A stretch of 64,000 bases of DNA from Pelotomaculum schinkii (GTDB lineage Bacteria; Bacillota; Desulfotomaculia; Desulfotomaculales; Pelotomaculaceae), in assembly GCF_004369205.1 (NCBI RefSeq), contig NZ_QFGA01000001.1:310001-374000 (forward strand). Reading direction: 5' to 3'. Under the pieces are notes generated by a model. The model made no database searches, was not told the DNA's origin, and saw only the letters and a program-made list of their open reading frames with translations. The translations under genes and the position numbers were made by a program. Of the stretch, positions 4,579-50,273 are shown one piece after another. Numbering within the stretch: position 1 is the stretch's first letter; the number at the start of each line of letters is the position of its first letter.

Positions 4579-6171
4579 ATGACCATTGATCTAAAGGACG
4601 TAGTAAGCTTTGGCAATATCGAAATCAACAAGCGTGTAGCCCAGGCCTTAACTGATATGGGCTTTGAAGAACCGACCCCGATCCAGCAAATGGCGATCCC
4701 GCTGCTTTATGATGGCAGGGACGTTGTTGGGCAGGCGCAAACCGGCACCGGTAAAACGGCTGCCTTTGGCATACCGATAGTTGAGATGGTAAATAACCGT
4801 TATGGCGGCGTGCAGGCCCTGATTATTACACCAACCAGGGAATTAGCCATCCAGGTCGCCGAAGAAATATCAAAGATTGGGAAATACCGGCGGGTGAGAA
4901 CCCTGCCTATTTACGGAGGTCAGTCAATAGAACGCCAAATCAGGGGGCTAAAGCAAGGGGTACAAGTCGTAATCGGCACTCCTGGCCGACTGCTGGACCA
5001 TTTAAACAGAGGAACCCTGCGTCTTGAAAATGTTAAAATGGTTGTCCTGGATGAAGCGGATGAAATGCTGGATATGGGTTTTATCGAGGATATTGAGTCC
5101 ATCCTGCAAGCGACGCCTGCACAGCGCCAGACGATGCTTTTCTCCGCGACCATGCCCGATGAAATAAAGCGCCTCTCCAGAAAATACCTGCAAAGTCCGG
5201 AATTTATCACGGTCAGCAAGCAAAACCTGACCGTGCCGCAGATTGAGCAGATAGTTTACGAAACCCGCGAGCCTAAAAAACTGGAAAGCCTCTGCAACAT
5301 TTTAGACTCCAGCAGCATTACTCTATCGATTATATTTTGCAGGACCAAAAGGGGTGTGGATGAACTTGTCGCCGGGCTTCAGGCGCGTGGTTACCAGGCT
5401 GCCGCTTTGCACGGCGATCTAAGTCAATATCAGCGCAACCATGTGATGAGACAATTCCGGACCGGACAGATTGATTACCTGGTCGCGACAGATGTGGCGG
5501 CCCGGGGGTTGGATATTGAAAACGTCTCTCACGTCATCAACTATGACGTCCCCCAGGATCCCGAATTCTATGTGCACCGTATCGGCAGGACGGGCCGCGC
5601 CGGCAAAAGCGGGATAGCCATCACCCTGGTTACCCCAAGGGAATACAAGCAGCTAAGACTTATTGAAAATCTCACCAAAACTCGCATCCGCCGTGAAAAA
5701 CTGCCTTCTCAGGCGGACATCCACGAGCGAAAAAAAGAAGGCATCATAGATAGGCTCAACTACCTTTTGAGTGAAGGCAAACTGGCTTACTACAGGAATA
5801 TTGTCGACTCCCTGGTTGATGAATATGATCCCATAGATATTGCCGCCGCAGCCCTTAAAATGTCCCTGGCCTTAGATGATGCCGAGGATATGACGGCTGA
5901 GTCTTTTGGCAATACCGGGGCGCGACCGGGGATGGTGAGATTATTTATGACCATCGGCAGGTTAGATAATATTTCACGGGCAGACCTTGTCCGGATCTTG
6001 GCGGAAGAGACCGGCATGCCCGAGAGCAGTGTCGGGAATATCAATATATACGAAAAATTTTCATTTGTTGAAGTGTCGGAAGAATGGGCTAACTACGTCA
6101 TCAGCTGCCTGCACCGTCAGACCATCAGAGGCAGGAGAATAAGTATCGAGCCCGCCCGCGGCAGAAGTTAA
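4579..6171 (+). CDS. DEAD-box ATP-dependent RNA helicase (DeaD/CshA type with DbpA-like RNA-binding tail)
   Basis: RNA helicase of 530 residues, probably used in ribosome assembly, mRNA decay or cold adaptation. The motifs are in order: Q-motif PTPIQQMAIP, motif I AQTGTGKT, PTRELA, GTPGR, DEAD box VLDEADEMLDMGF, SAT, then the second RecA-like domain with ATDVAARGLDIE and HRIGRTGRAG. Residues from about 445 onward (VRLFMTIGRLDNISRADLV through ISIEPARGRS) form a DbpA-type RRM that binds RNA. The start ATG has GGGAG 8 bases upstream. It stands alone between cinA and the SOS-controlled recA, with about 95 bp before it and 170 bp of non-coding sequence after it in which I see no clear signal. Confidence 0.95.
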   Translation: MTIDLKDVVSFGNIEINKRVAQALTDMGFEEPTPIQQMAIPLLYDGRDVVGQAQTGTGKTAAFGIPIVEMVNNRYGGVQALIITPTRELAIQVAEEISKIGKYRRVRTLPIYGGQSIERQIRGLKQGVQVVIGTPGRLLDHLNRGTLRLENVKMVVLDEADEMLDMGFIEDIESILQATPAQRQTMLFSATMPDEIKRLSRKYLQSPEFITVSKQNLTVPQIEQIVYETREPKKLESLCNILDSSSITLSIIFCRTKRGVDELVAGLQARGYQAAALHGDLSQYQRNHVMRQFRTGQIDYLVATDVAARGLDIENVSHVINYDVPQDPEFYVHRIGRTGRAGKSGIAITLVTPREYKQLRLIENLTKTRIRREKLPSQADIHERKKEGIIDRLNYLLSEGKLAYYRNIVDSLVDEYDPIDIAAAALKMSLALDDAEDMTAESFGNTGARPGMVRLFMTIGRLDNISRADLVRILAEETGMPESSVGNINIYEKFSFVEVSEEWANYVISCLHRQTIRGRRISIEPARGRS

Positions 6172-7461: not shown

Positions 7462-7926
7462 GTGAATTCTGAAGTCGATAAAGCAATATCCTTTGCCTGC
7501 CGGGTTCTGGCCTATCGCCGGCGAACCGCCCGCGAACTGACCGAAAAACTTGAAAAGCAAGGCTTTGCTGCTGAAGTCAACCGCAGCGTGATTGACACCA
7601 TGTCGCGATACGGTTACATTGACGACAAGGCTTACGCCCGTCTCTGGATAGAACAAAGACTCTATAAAAGAGGTTTTCCCGGACTCAAGCGTGAGCTGCT
7701 GCAAAAAGGTGTTGACACCTGCATTATTGATGAAACCATTGCGGAAGCAGGCCCGGAGGCGGAATTCAAAGCAGCGTTCCTATTGGCCTTAAAGAAAGCA
7801 ACTCAAAACGGCGGCGCCTGTTCTTACCCACGGTTGGCCCGGTTTCTGCAAAACAGGGGATATTCTTACGAGTCAATCAGCAGAGTCGGTCGCACCATCA
7901 CTACTGATAGCGGGGCTAAACCTTGA
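7462..7926 (+). CDS. recX: Regulatory protein RecX
   Basis: A small (154 aa) RecA modulator that caps or destabilises RecA filaments. It shows the repeated three-helix pattern of RecX, with RRRTARELTEKLEKQGF, YGYIDDKAYARLWIEQR and KRGFPGLKRELLQKGV. The GTG start lies two bases after the recA stop, so the two genes form one operon under the same LexA control. The final codons overlap the -35 element of the next promoter. Confidence 0.93.
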   Translation: MNSEVDKAISFACRVLAYRRRTARELTEKLEKQGFAAEVNRSVIDTMSRYGYIDDKAYARLWIEQRLYKRGFPGLKRELLQKGVDTCIIDETIAEAGPEAEFKAAFLLALKKATQNGGACSYPRLARFLQNRGYSYESISRVGRTITTDSGAKP

Positions 7927-7951
7927 CAGTTTTTTAAAAAACCTGTACAAT
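7923..7951 (+). promoter_or_regulatory. Strong sigma-A-type promoter for the rny leader RNA
   Basis: A perfect -35 TTGACA (7923-7928), a 17-base spacer and -10 TACAAT (7946-7951). It overlaps the last codon of recX. Transcription would start near 7958 and produce the structured leader described next. Confidence 0.82.
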
Positions 7952-7956
7952 ATAGG

Positions 7957-8162
7957 CTGGTAGAAAATAGAATTAGATACTACTTGTACGGGTTTTATAA
8001 TAGATAAAATCCTATAGTTTCGGGGGTAGGAGATATAGCCGGGAGTTTATTTTCGGCTATTAAGATAGTGTCCGTTATTGGGGCTATTTACTTACCTTTA
8101 TCTGGACAAGTATAAAAGTAGTGTCTTGTGTTTTCTGCCGAGTTTCTAGCTCGGTTTTTTTT
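7957..8162 (+). ncRNA. Structured RNA candidate with its own promoter and terminator, upstream of rny
   Basis: About 206 nt between a strong promoter and a hairpin-T8 terminator. P1 pairs 7976-7989 with 8110-8125: GATACTACTT with AAGTAGTGTC, then GTAC with GTAT across a 2-nt bulge. Inside P1 are P2 (7990-7998 with 8004-8012, nine pairs), P3 (8035-8041 with 8054-8060, ATAGCCG with CGGCTAT) and P4 (8069-8073 with 8104-8108, TGTCC with GGACA). A G-rich single strand (TTTCGGGGGTAGGAGA) lies between P2 and P3. The terminator is CCGAG (8138-8142) / CTCGG (8150-8154) followed by T8. The junction layout resembles a riboswitch or a free sRNA. I recognise no known class; a 6S-like RNA is the main alternative. 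Confidence 0.6.
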
Positions 8163-8200
8163 ATGGTTGCAGTCATTTATATTAAAAGGAGGTGAATTTA

Positions 8201-9739
8201 ATGGACATGAATACGGTTCTAATTATTGTAGGAGCCGCAATCGCGGCTTTTGTTGTGGGTTATTTACTCAGGAAATACCTGGCTGAAGCAAAAATCGCTT
8301 CAGCAGAGTCTGAAGCAAAAAAAATACTGGAAGAAGCCGAGAAAGAAGCCGAGGCCAGGAAAAGGGAAGCTATTCTGGAGGCCAAGGAAGAAGTCTTAAA
8401 ATTACGTAACGATATTGAAAGGGAAAACAGAGATCGCAGGAATGAACTCCAGCGATTGGAGCGACGACTGGTTCAAAAAGAAGAGACCCTGGACCGCAAG
8501 GTCGATGCGTTAGAAAAAAAGGAAGAAAATCTGACCCGGAAAGAGTCGGAAATAGAAGCTGTCAAAGGTCAGCTTACAACGCTCTACAACCGCCAGGTAA
8601 GTGAGCTTGAACGTATCTCCGGCTTGACTTCCGAGGAAGCAAAACAGATTCTTCTTTCGGATATTGAAAAAGAAATCCAGCATGATGCGGCTATAATGAT
8701 TAAAGAAATTGAAGGCAAGGCCAAAGAGGAAGGGGATAAGCGTGCCCGGGAGATTATATCCCTGGCTATTCAGAGGTGCGCCGCAGATCACGTCGCTGAA
8801 GCGACGGTGGCAGTGATTCCACTGCCGGGTGATGAAATGAAAGGGCGCATTATCGGGCGCGAGGGTAGGAATATCCGCGCTTTTGAAACCTTAACCGGGA
8901 TTGACTTGATTATTGACGATACTCCGGAAGCTGTAATTCTGTCCGGTTTTGATCCGATTCGCCGGGAGGTAGCCCGGATTGCTTTGGAAAAGCTGATTGT
9001 GGATGGGAGGATTCACCCGGCTCGCATTGAAGAGATGGTGGAAAAGGCTCAAAAGGAGGTTAACAACCAAATCAGGGAGGCTGGTGAACAGTCCACCTTT
9101 GAGACTGGCGTGCACGGCATTCACCCTGAGCTTATTACCCTCCTGGGCAGGCTGAAATTCCGCACCAGCTATGGTCAGAATGTTCTAAAACACTCCATTG
9201 AGGTAGCCCATCTGTCCGGTCTGATGGCGGCCGAATTGGGCGTTGATGTACAACTGGCCAAGAGAGCAGGCCTTTTGCACGACATTGGTAAGGCTGTGGA
9301 CCATGAGGTGGAGGGACCACATGTAACCATAGGTGTAGATTTGGCTAAAAAATATCGTGAGGGGCATGATGTTATTCATGCCATTGCAGCTCACCACGGC
9401 GATGAAGAACCTCAGACCATTGTCGCGGTGCTGGTCCAGGCGGCTGACGCAATTTCCGCGGCCCGGCCAGGCGCGCGCCGTGAAACTTTGGAAGCATACA
9501 TCAAGCGTTTAACTAAACTTGAGGAAATTGCCAACTCCTTTGATGGTGTTGAAAAATCCTTTGCCATTCAGGCCGGCCGTGAAGTACGCATAATGGTCAA
9601 GCCGGATAAAGTGGATGACCTGGGAGCCGTCCGATTGGTCCGTGATATTACCAAAAAAATAGAAGGTGAGTTAGACTACCCCGGGCAGATTAAAGTTGTC
9701 ATCATCAGGGAAACCAGGGTGGTAGAATACGCCAAATAA
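8201..9739 (+). CDS. rny: Ribonuclease Y
   Basis: Membrane-anchored endoribonuclease that starts bulk mRNA decay. It has 512 residues from ATG 8201, chosen because AGGAGG lies 8 bases upstream; an in-frame GTG at 8192 falls inside the ribosome site itself. Residues 5-24 form the membrane helix. Residues 30-170 are a highly charged coiled coil rich in Glu, Lys and Arg. A KH RNA-binding domain follows ([15 protein letters not shown]). The HD catalytic domain shows [22 protein letters not shown] and [10 protein letters not shown] structured leader with a terminator precedes it, so its expression may be attenuated. Confidence 0.97.
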
Positions 9740-9905: not shown

Positions 9906-10040
9906 GGAATGATTCAAATGTGTGCTTATTTATCCAACATTCCTAGATATTTTAAGCTCGTGATAAGAAAAAAAAGCAGGAAAACTCTATTCAAAACAGA
10001 ATCTCTACATATTGCGCAGGTCATAAGGAAGGTGACAGTT

Positions 10041-10562
10041 TTGGCATTCCGGTACAAAGGCAACAGGGGTAATGTTACAGACAGCGTTGGCCTGTTGATT
10101 TCAATTTTAGTCAGATATCCTGAAGTAGCTACCATTAATTTCGATCCTGAAAACCATTTGCTTAAATTTACCTTTATATACTCTCAGTCGCTTGGTAAAA
10201 ATGAATTGGACAACCTGCACGATAAGCTCATGGACAGTATTGAAGTATATAATTTACTGGAAGGCAAGGAGCCTAAATTTGTCTCTTTAAACCACCAGGT
10301 TTGCAGCAACTTGACCATGATCGAAATACAGAGGGACGTAGATACCCTGGTTCAGGAAGAGATCACTCTCATCGTGAATCTCTTTCATCAGTACCTCCAT
10401 AACAACCTGGTGACGGAAGATAATGAACAATTAGTCGAAGAAGATCTAATTGCCCAGGATGAATTAATTGAACACATGCTTGAGAATATCAAGTGCTCGA
10501 AACAGGAAAAATCTCTTTTTGCCTTTCGTGAGGAAGGAAGGGTGCTTGTTTTTAATAAATGA
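10041..10562 (+). CDS. Conserved hypothetical protein between rny and the YmdB-like gene
   Basis: I recognise no named family. The 173-residue protein is soluble and acidic toward the C-terminus, with an amphipathic helical part (residues 115-160). The start TTG 10041 is preferred because AAGGAAGG lies 8 bases upstream and the LAFRYKGNRGNV segment looks like a true N-terminus. An in-frame ATG at 9909 would add 44 residues that run through a repeat-derived region and look non-coding. The stop codon overlaps the ATG of the next gene (ATGA), so the pair is likely co-translated. Confidence 0.7.
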   Translation: MAFRYKGNRGNVTDSVGLLISILVRYPEVATINFDPENHLLKFTFIYSQSLGKNELDNLHDKLMDSIEVYNLLEGKEPKFVSLNHQVCSNLTMIEIQRDVDTLVQEEITLIVNLFHQYLHNNLVTEDNEQLVEEDLIAQDELIEHMLENIKCSKQEKSLFAFREEGRVLVFNK

Positions 10563-15864: not shown

Positions 15865-16082
15865 GAAAAATTAAATTGCCGCAGTCGCCCTTTTGGGTGT
15901 AATTGGGGAATCAGGTGCGATACCTGAGCGGTCCCGCCACTGTAACCGGTTACGCGCACAGCGCTTTAATGCCCGGCCAGGCTTATTAAAGGGGAGTAAA
16001 TGCGGGTAAACGGAAGCCAGGATACCTGCCTGCGGGTAACGACCGAACTTCCTTCGAGGTAAAGGGGACGGCGGGTAAAATT
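15865..16082 (+). promoter_or_regulatory. Cobalamin (AdoCbl) riboswitch
   Basis: The canonical core is present in order: TTGGGGAATCAGGTGCGA, GAGCGGTCCCGCCACTGTAA (with the B12-box complement GCCACTG at 15936-15942), GGAAGCCAGGATACCTGCC and ACGACCGAACTTCCTTCGAGG. It controls the downstream cob cluster, turning it off when adenosylcobalamin is plentiful. Confidence 0.95.
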
Positions 16083-23696: not shown

Positions 23697-23957
23697 TTAA
23701 ATGACAAATTGTAACATTATTTGCTCTTGCAATTTAATATGCCTGTTATTACCATTAATGGTGACAGATTGTTTTATAACGCCCAAATGATAAACATTAT
23801 CCGAAGTCATTTTACCTATGGCCATGTTGGCTAGGGTAACTTGACCGGCAGGGTGCGTACCGGAAACGGTCGTACCTCCCATTGTGGAAAGGATAGTATA
23901 TGTTGGGGTTTATAAAGCCCTTCATTGCAATTTATTTCGCAATGAAGGGCTTATTCT
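23697..23957. other. Intergenic region with a short doubtful minus-strand ORF and a strong terminator
   Basis: A 61-codon minus-strand ORF at 23697-23882 encodes a Thr/Ala/Asn-rich peptide. It lacks a ribosome site, and I do not accept it as a gene; it may be a fragment of a surface or spore protein. A 14-pair perfect stem, AAGCCCTTCATTGC (23915-23928) / GCAATGAAGGGCTT (23939-23952), then ATTCTTTATT, forms a terminator. It closes the cob side before the accessory island. Confidence 0.6.
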
Positions 23958-49814: not shown

Positions 49815-49856
49815 GGAAAGTGCTAGACACGGTAGTTGCCGGGTAGAAAAAGGTTT

Positions 49857-49890
49857 GGGCTTTTAGAAAAAGCCCTTTCTTTATTTTTCA
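49857..49890 (+). terminator. Rho-independent terminator after the HMA-fold gene
   Basis: GGGCTTTT (49857-49864) / AAAAGCCC (49868-49875), loop of 3, then TTTCTTTATTTTT. Confidence 0.85.
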
Positions 49891-49992
49891 AATAAATATT
49901 ACCATCTTACTTTAATTTTCAACTTCTTATATCTATATGGAGATAAAAATATCTCATTAAACTATAGACTCATTCATCGTTTGAAAACGATT

Positions 49993-50021: not shown

Positions 50022-50040
50022 CTGACAGTAATAGTATTAA

Positions 50041-50256
50041 AAATGCCGAATCCCAGTAATATTTATACTGGGTACGGGGGAACCAATTACTTGGGGTGAA
50101 TCCCATTTGCGCCATGCGTGTAATATTAGTGTGAAAGAGGACAAGCCTGCCCGTTATTTTTGGTTGAGAGTAGCCATGGGGCGCCACGACACACTAATTT
50201 GGCAAAATGGGTAGGGTATCTTTCACCGAACCCGCCAGCTAACCCCGGAGGCGCTA
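50041..50256 (+). promoter_or_regulatory. c-di-AMP riboswitch (ydaO/yuaA type)
   Basis: Conserved blocks are visible in order: GCCGAATCCCAG, TACGGGGGAACCAATT, TTGGGGTGAATCCC, GGGTAGGGTATCTTTCACC and GAACCCGCCAGCTAACCCC, closing with GGCGCTAAG. This class senses cyclic di-AMP and often controls cell-wall hydrolases and osmotic genes. Here it leads a secreted CAP-domain protein. Some frames through this RNA are open but do not encode protein. Confidence 0.92.
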
Positions 50257-50273
50257 AGAAAGGGGCAATCCTG

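Follow-up and report, generated by a model that had tools for sequence, protein, structure and literature searches.

RNase Y is the bacterial enzyme that starts messenger-RNA breakdown. The closest described system is that of Bacillus subtilis, where rny is autoregulated via its own mRNA, partly through the 5’ UTR (PMC10303841). It shares the gene with the leader described here, and its 5’ UTR contributes to RNase Y feedback. According to the passages of PMC10303841 on this leader, the B. subtilis system differs in that it works by cleavage at the start of the ORF and in the 164-nt leader, with RNase J1 trimming. That leader has one stem-loop in its first 50 nt and a ribosome-site hairpin common to close relatives, and these passages mention no terminator switch, unlike the leader here. 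Besides the B. subtilis autoregulation, growth phase and Fur are named for Helicobacter pylori (PMC11821409), and PMC3649979 mentions RNase Y only in passing. The sensor stem-loop of the Escherichia coli rne 5’ UTR (Diwa 2000, as cited in PMC2864571) and rne-II (RF01756) are likewise structured leaders of a main decay endonuclease that serve as feedback sensors. However, gene and taxa differ, and the E. coli stem-loop, as outlined in PMC10303841, binds RNase E and speeds cleavage elsewhere, with no terminator switch. The B. subtilis rplJL leader, bound by L10(L12)4, is in the part of PMC4538822 covered here an attenuator leader read by the encoded protein, which is the mechanism type that we propose below; its gene, protein and RNA are different, and no Rfam family matched at our RNA.

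We analyzed a 64,000-nt stretch of DNA (the window) in which an RNA lies between recX and rny. The original prediction of a promoter, a structured RNA and a terminator at 7923-8162, ahead of rny, was correct in its coordinates. The features of the locus are as follows:

7462..7926, + strand: recX, the upstream neighbor, its 3’ end overlapping the -35 box
7923..7951, + strand: sigma-70-type promoter TTGACA-17-TACAAT, 11/12 consensus matches, placed to drive the RNA and rny
7957..8162, + strand: structured leader RNA of ~205 nt, from the predicted 5’ end to the terminator T run; match to covariance model R1 (below), 156.6 bits
7959..7967, + strand: outer P1 5’ strand, the RNA 5’-end strand GGUAGAAAA, pairing with 8131-8139; proposed antiterminator
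7976..7989, + strand: inner P1 5’ strand, supported by covariation
7990..8012, + strand: P2 hairpin with an AU-rich loop (AUAGAU-type strand), from the fold and covariation
8019..8106, + strand: P3 enclosing P4 (8035-8060) and P5 (about 8063-8087), from the MFE fold; a family-level elaboration
8110..8125, + strand: inner P1 3’ strand with a 2-nt bulge at 8114-8115, supported by covariation
8131..8139, + strand: outer P1 3’ strand UUUUCUGCC, pairing with 7959-7967
8137..8162, + strand: intrinsic terminator GCCGAG-UUUCUAG-CUCGGU plus T run, with an 8-pair stem at 8137-8155
8201..9739, + strand: rny (RNase Y), with RNase_Y_N and HD domains

The promoter, described earlier as perfect, is near-consensus, and the terminator is where it had been placed. 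The gap of ~39 nt between terminator and rny start contains a ribosome-binding site. Just upstream of recA-recX-rny lies a gene for a DEAD-box RNA helicase with DbpA-type RNA-binding and DeaD dimerization domains (window 4579-6171); DEAD-box helicases are RNase Y degradosome partners in other bacteria. Downstream, a 217-aa ORF (window 9909-10562) without a Pfam match at E ≤ 1e-5 separates rny from ymdB and spoVS.

The RNA at 7957-8164 was predicted to fold at -67 kcal/mol, compared with -46 ± 4.3 for 200 dinucleotide shuffles (z -4.9, no shuffle as low). Without the terminator (7957-8135), z was -3.6 and one of 200 shuffles was as low. A 14-pair helix with a 2-nt bulge (7976-7989/8110-8125) had been noted before and is present; it forms just the inner section of a longer closing helix, P1. 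This helix starts at the predicted RNA 5’ end (7959-7967/8131-8139) and encloses P2 and P3 with its P4 and P5, and the last two C of its outer 3’ strand (8138-8139) double as the base of the terminator 5’ arm. The 5’-end strand reads GGGAGAAAA in most relatives; it is conserved in the order and recognizable beyond. As for the predicted conservation of P1-P4, P1 was found across most of the order and P2 in most members, but P3-P5 are not general to the class. In the 17 same-family leaders (of 25) that were tested, the inner region P3-P5 had z values between -3.2 and 0.4, with a median of -2.2; members of 140-147 nt have a short interior in its place. Likewise, the G-rich strand that had appeared conserved (8022-8030) exists as one side of P3, but its conservation extends to parts of the same family only and is not order-wide. 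The RNA is expanded to 359-409 nt in three leaders (L079, L084 and L094), and the leader of L295 is split into two model matches; all four retain the ends of the RNA and its position ahead of rny.

6S RNA is about 200 nt long and has a long closing helix, a likeness to the ~205-nt leader here. The 6S model (RF00013) had no match at 7957-8162, and the 6S gene of this genome lies elsewhere (G000:C1:75972-76152); a separate 6S gene was found in 58 of 60 relatives, the source genome included. Several relatives had two or three 6S matches, and one member of the order has two tandem copies (G042:C6:9596-10034). No family in a scan of the window with Rfam 15 reached its gathering score at 7957-8162, in agreement with the initial failure to assign the RNA to a riboswitch class. 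The best sub-threshold match at the RNA had an E-value of 0.04 (19.3 bits, cut-off 49.5). Rfam also gave no gathering-score match in 20 loci from other families. The RNase E leaders (rne5 and rne-II) also had no match at the RNA, and the downstream gene is rny. No rny or ymdA leader motif is described in the open-access literature covered, including the main text, without supplements, of three motif-discovery papers (PMC11109978, PMC8632094 and PMC2864571). The RNA, its link to this gene and the use of its 5’ terminus as antiterminator thus appear to be new, and the mechanism type, an autoregulatory attenuation leader, is known.

To profile the distribution of the RNA, we built a covariance model (R1) from the leaders of 25 relatives; its E-values are rough, as calibration was short. 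R1 matched at E ≤ 0.01 in 96 of the 113 genomes of the order (the class-level search covered the identical 113 genomes). These genomes gave 99 such matches, of which 98 end 28-276 nt before an rny match on the same strand; the sole exception is a weak extra match in G039. An rny gene was found at E ≤ 1e-50 in 107 of the 113 genomes. The six others (G031, G032, G038, G069, G098 and G105), where rny may have been lost or fall in assembly gaps, had no R1 match even at E ≤ 1. Eleven of the 107 genomes with rny lacked an R1 match at E ≤ 0.01. Four of them had none at E ≤ 1 (G027, G037, G040 and G050), and seven matched only between E 0.01 and 1, two of these (G086 and G111) on a contig other than that of rny. 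The rny leader of G086 (L309) matched R1 at 43.4 bits when searched alone and was missed by the stricter filter of the genome-wide search, so the R1 genome counts are minimum values.

Promoter, 5’ strand, inner helix, terminator and usually P2 precede rny in most relatives fetched. By eye, the element is missing in L089, L092 and L093 and doubtful in L090. The first three loci (from G027, G040 and G050), also judged by eye, comprise two with a promoter and other hairpins and one leaderless locus where rny follows close behind a recA-like gene. Of 28 loci with sufficient flanking sequence, 25 have recX no more than 1.4 kb upstream, and the three where no recX was found upstream (L017, L035 and L036) still keep the RNA. 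An unspecific DNA pattern scan for the 5’ motif hit at least 119 loci, with rny downstream in 14 among the matches listed; these included Pelotomaculum propionicicum, Desulforamulus aeronauticus, Desulfoscipio geothermicus, Desulfovirgula thermocuniculi and Sporotomaculum syntrophicum, and the names point to Desulfotomaculales as the order.

Covariation, proposed at the outset as a check, was found in P1. In an alignment-free comparison using one leader from each of 15 families, the cognate inner P1 duplex had a mean energy of -12.6 kcal/mol, compared with -7.4 ± 0.84 when strands were exchanged between families. Among 2000 exchanged sets, even the best energy (-10.73) fell short of the weakest observed draw (-10.83). 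In alignment A3 (94 matches), 86.7% of cells were paired compared with 79.9% after shuffling, and 183 cells carried double changes compared with 66.7, with none of 500 shuffles reaching as many. Double changes occurred at all eight inner P1 pairs and all six P2 pairs of the model, with 69-80% of P2 cells paired, and sliding the partners by 1-3 columns lowered pairing to 35-54%. A3 was fitted to the structure of the model, and its input was 95 of 108 leader loci, with the 94 matches coming from 93 loci (two from L295, none from L078 or L307). The 13 loci left out were near duplicates (L015 and L026), long RNAs (L079, L094 and L332) and loci with no clear RNA (L089, L090, L092, L093, L308 and L328-L330), so the pair counts lean towards clear members. 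Because P1 is nearly constant within the family, RNAalifold on a same-family alignment (A1) yielded a weak consensus in which one pair of 23 covaried, and order-wide data were needed. The CC:GG pairing cannot be proven by covariation, since both the shared CC and the GG opposite it show almost no variation in the order.

The duplex-exchange, terminator-versus-P1 and promoter and spacing tests were based on the 89 of 108 order leaders that contain both regex anchors (79 unique leaders in the duplex exchange). Motif scoring found a promoter with at least 10/12 matches upstream of the RNA in 86 of these 89. The GGGAG strand follows the start of the -35 box at a distance of 36 nt in 68 of 86 leaders; across all 86 the distance is 35-43 nt, a constancy that marks this strand as the predicted RNA 5’ end. 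A terminator of the GCCGAG-stem type was found by a loose pattern in 102 of 108 order leaders. The distance from terminator to rny start has a median of 50 nt and is at most 70 nt in 80 of 89 leaders, and no excess of promoters was seen inside the RNA (4/89 leaders compared with 15/445 shuffles). This leaves little room for a second promoter before rny. The sequence pattern is that of an attenuator: promoter, structured leader, intrinsic terminator and rny, with no sign of a further promoter.

Folding models for the order pair the 5’ end with UUUUCU-N-CC, the CC of which also lies at the base of the terminator 5’ arm. Because this pairing and the terminator use the same bases, the models predict that they are mutually exclusive. 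Until the terminator 3’ arm is transcribed, the folds assign the CC to the 5’ end, with a probability of 0.9995 here and a mean of 0.99 across the leaders short enough for whole-RNA folds and this test (83 of the 89); the same pairing is predicted in all 83. Folds of the complete RNA favored the terminator in most of the 89 order leaders, with a median margin of 3.4 kcal/mol and a mean probability of 0.86, so the 5’-end alternative may be only transient. P1 was favored over the terminator by 1.3 kcal/mol in the source genus, by 1.7 on average in family f3 and by 3.6 in family f10.

Beyond the order, a phylum sample of 398 genomes gave 26 R1 matches, 23 of them (8/8 and 15/18) just before rny. 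The remaining three are weak, with E-values of 0.005-0.009; in that number of genomes, chance alone would give about four such matches. The matches L270, L274 and L278 span only 39-55 nt, little beyond the terminator. One genus outside the order (L136, L137 and L138) has a minimal leader of ~90 nt with P1 and terminator only. We also inspected 55 rny leaders from other families, picked without regard to the element: 40 were taken one per family, with most families that had model matches skipped, and 15 came from the 30 loci with the best rny matches. The set is thus not random: it draws mostly on families without a model match and on best-rny loci. A terminator lies at most 170 nt from rny in 32 of the 55, and 22 of those 32 have a CCGAG-like stem (CCGAG, CCGGG or GCGAG). 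The other 23 had no terminator by the rule used, which makes the class widespread and not universal. AGAAAC or GGAAAC occurs within the first 18 nt after the predicted start in 10 of the 55 (L338-L340, L348, L353, L362, L363, L368, L374 and L386), and several contain a P2-like UUUCUUAUAUA strand.

In leaders from outside the order, the complement of the 5’ end lies in the arm and loop of the terminator, for example AGAAACU with AGUUUCU and, by eye, AGAAC with GUUCU (L378). Of 78 leaders, 52 entered the complementarity and pre-terminator tests; the predicted starts of L141, L269, L272, L276 and L341 look wrong and were kept in the former. Pairing of the 5’ end with arm and loop averaged -6.3, compared with -5.5 ± 0.31 after exchange between 33 families (fraction 0.0023), a modest signal, and with -4.3 ± 0.32 for shuffled 5’ ends in the same number of families. 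Prior to synthesis of the 3’ arm, the 5’ end is predicted to occupy at least 3 nt of arm and loop in 24 of 33 families and fewer than 3 nt in nine. The terminator was still dominant in folds of most complete RNAs.

Relatives keep the RNA at the same gene, so the leader probably sets the amount of RNase Y. On balance, we favor its interpretation as a cis-acting attenuation leader of rny that uses its 5’ end as antiterminator and provides feedback on the level of RNase Y. Transcription would start at the conserved promoter, so that the RNA begins (G)GGAGAAAA, and the long-range P1 would fold this 5’ end back onto the stretch that runs up to and into the terminator. As long as the CC of the terminator 5’ arm (or, in other families, its arm and loop, CCGAGUUUCU) is bound by the 5’ end, the terminator would be weakened and polymerase could read into rny; once the 5’ end is displaced, the full terminator would form and an RNA of ~205 nt would be released. 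The element is tied to rny alone, so RNase Y capacity would be the likeliest signal. We infer RNase Y as the signal for regulated readthrough from this exclusive linkage and from the B. subtilis precedent in the passages of PMC10303841. Free RNase Y might bind or cut the AU-rich strands (5’ strand and P2 loop) and so favor termination or destabilize the read-through mRNA. However, a cut in the leader alone would not dissolve the long P1.

More tentatively, and with less confidence than for the interpretation above, the leader might represent a widespread class in which the RNA’s own 5’ terminus is the rny antiterminator and the decay machinery, acting at the 5’ end or AU-rich loops, sets both termination and mRNA stability. 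If so, the rny mRNA would have a built-in sensor of RNA-decay capacity. The class would add an RNA family without an Rfam match and an attenuator using the very 5’ end of the RNA as antiterminator. A conserved leader with a testable switch, found in most of the order and still recognizable in distant families, would make RNA-decay feedback directly testable.

The strongest competing explanation, although an unlikely one, is a stand-alone small RNA acting in trans from its own promoter and strong terminator, with rny expressed by constitutive readthrough. A strong promoter and a strong terminator indeed frame an RNA with a paired 5’ end, and most folds favor the terminator. Yet no strong copy was found away from rny (at E ≤ 0.01, one weak match among 99 in the order and three among 26 outside), and the spacing to rny stays short, whereas a trans-acting RNA would be free to leave one gene. 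We consider it improbable that autoregulation is post-transcriptional only, with RNase Y cutting the leader and the terminator setting a fixed low level. It would agree with the AU-rich loops beside helices in this leader and with the cleavage of the 164-nt rny 5’ UTR by RNase Y itself, given for B. subtilis in the passages of PMC10303841, but the conserved terminator and the 5’-end complementarity would be left unexplained. Slightly less probable still is a metabolite or ion riboswitch controlling rny: the terminator-type architecture and conserved sequences in the P2 loop and the 5’ strand would suit one, but the element is found at one gene only, and its interior varies from ~20 nt (L136) to more than 300 nt (L079, a 409-nt RNA) while P1 stays, which leaves no large conserved ligand core. 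An attenuator leader accounts for the exclusive link to a single gene better than either a trans-acting RNA or a riboswitch does.

Elsewhere in the window, riboswitches above the gathering score were a cobalamin riboswitch (15866-16047), a molybdenum-cofactor riboswitch (23787-23910) and a c-di-AMP riboswitch (50034-50267), the last directly preceded by a tRNA-Ser(aga) gene (49829-49906).
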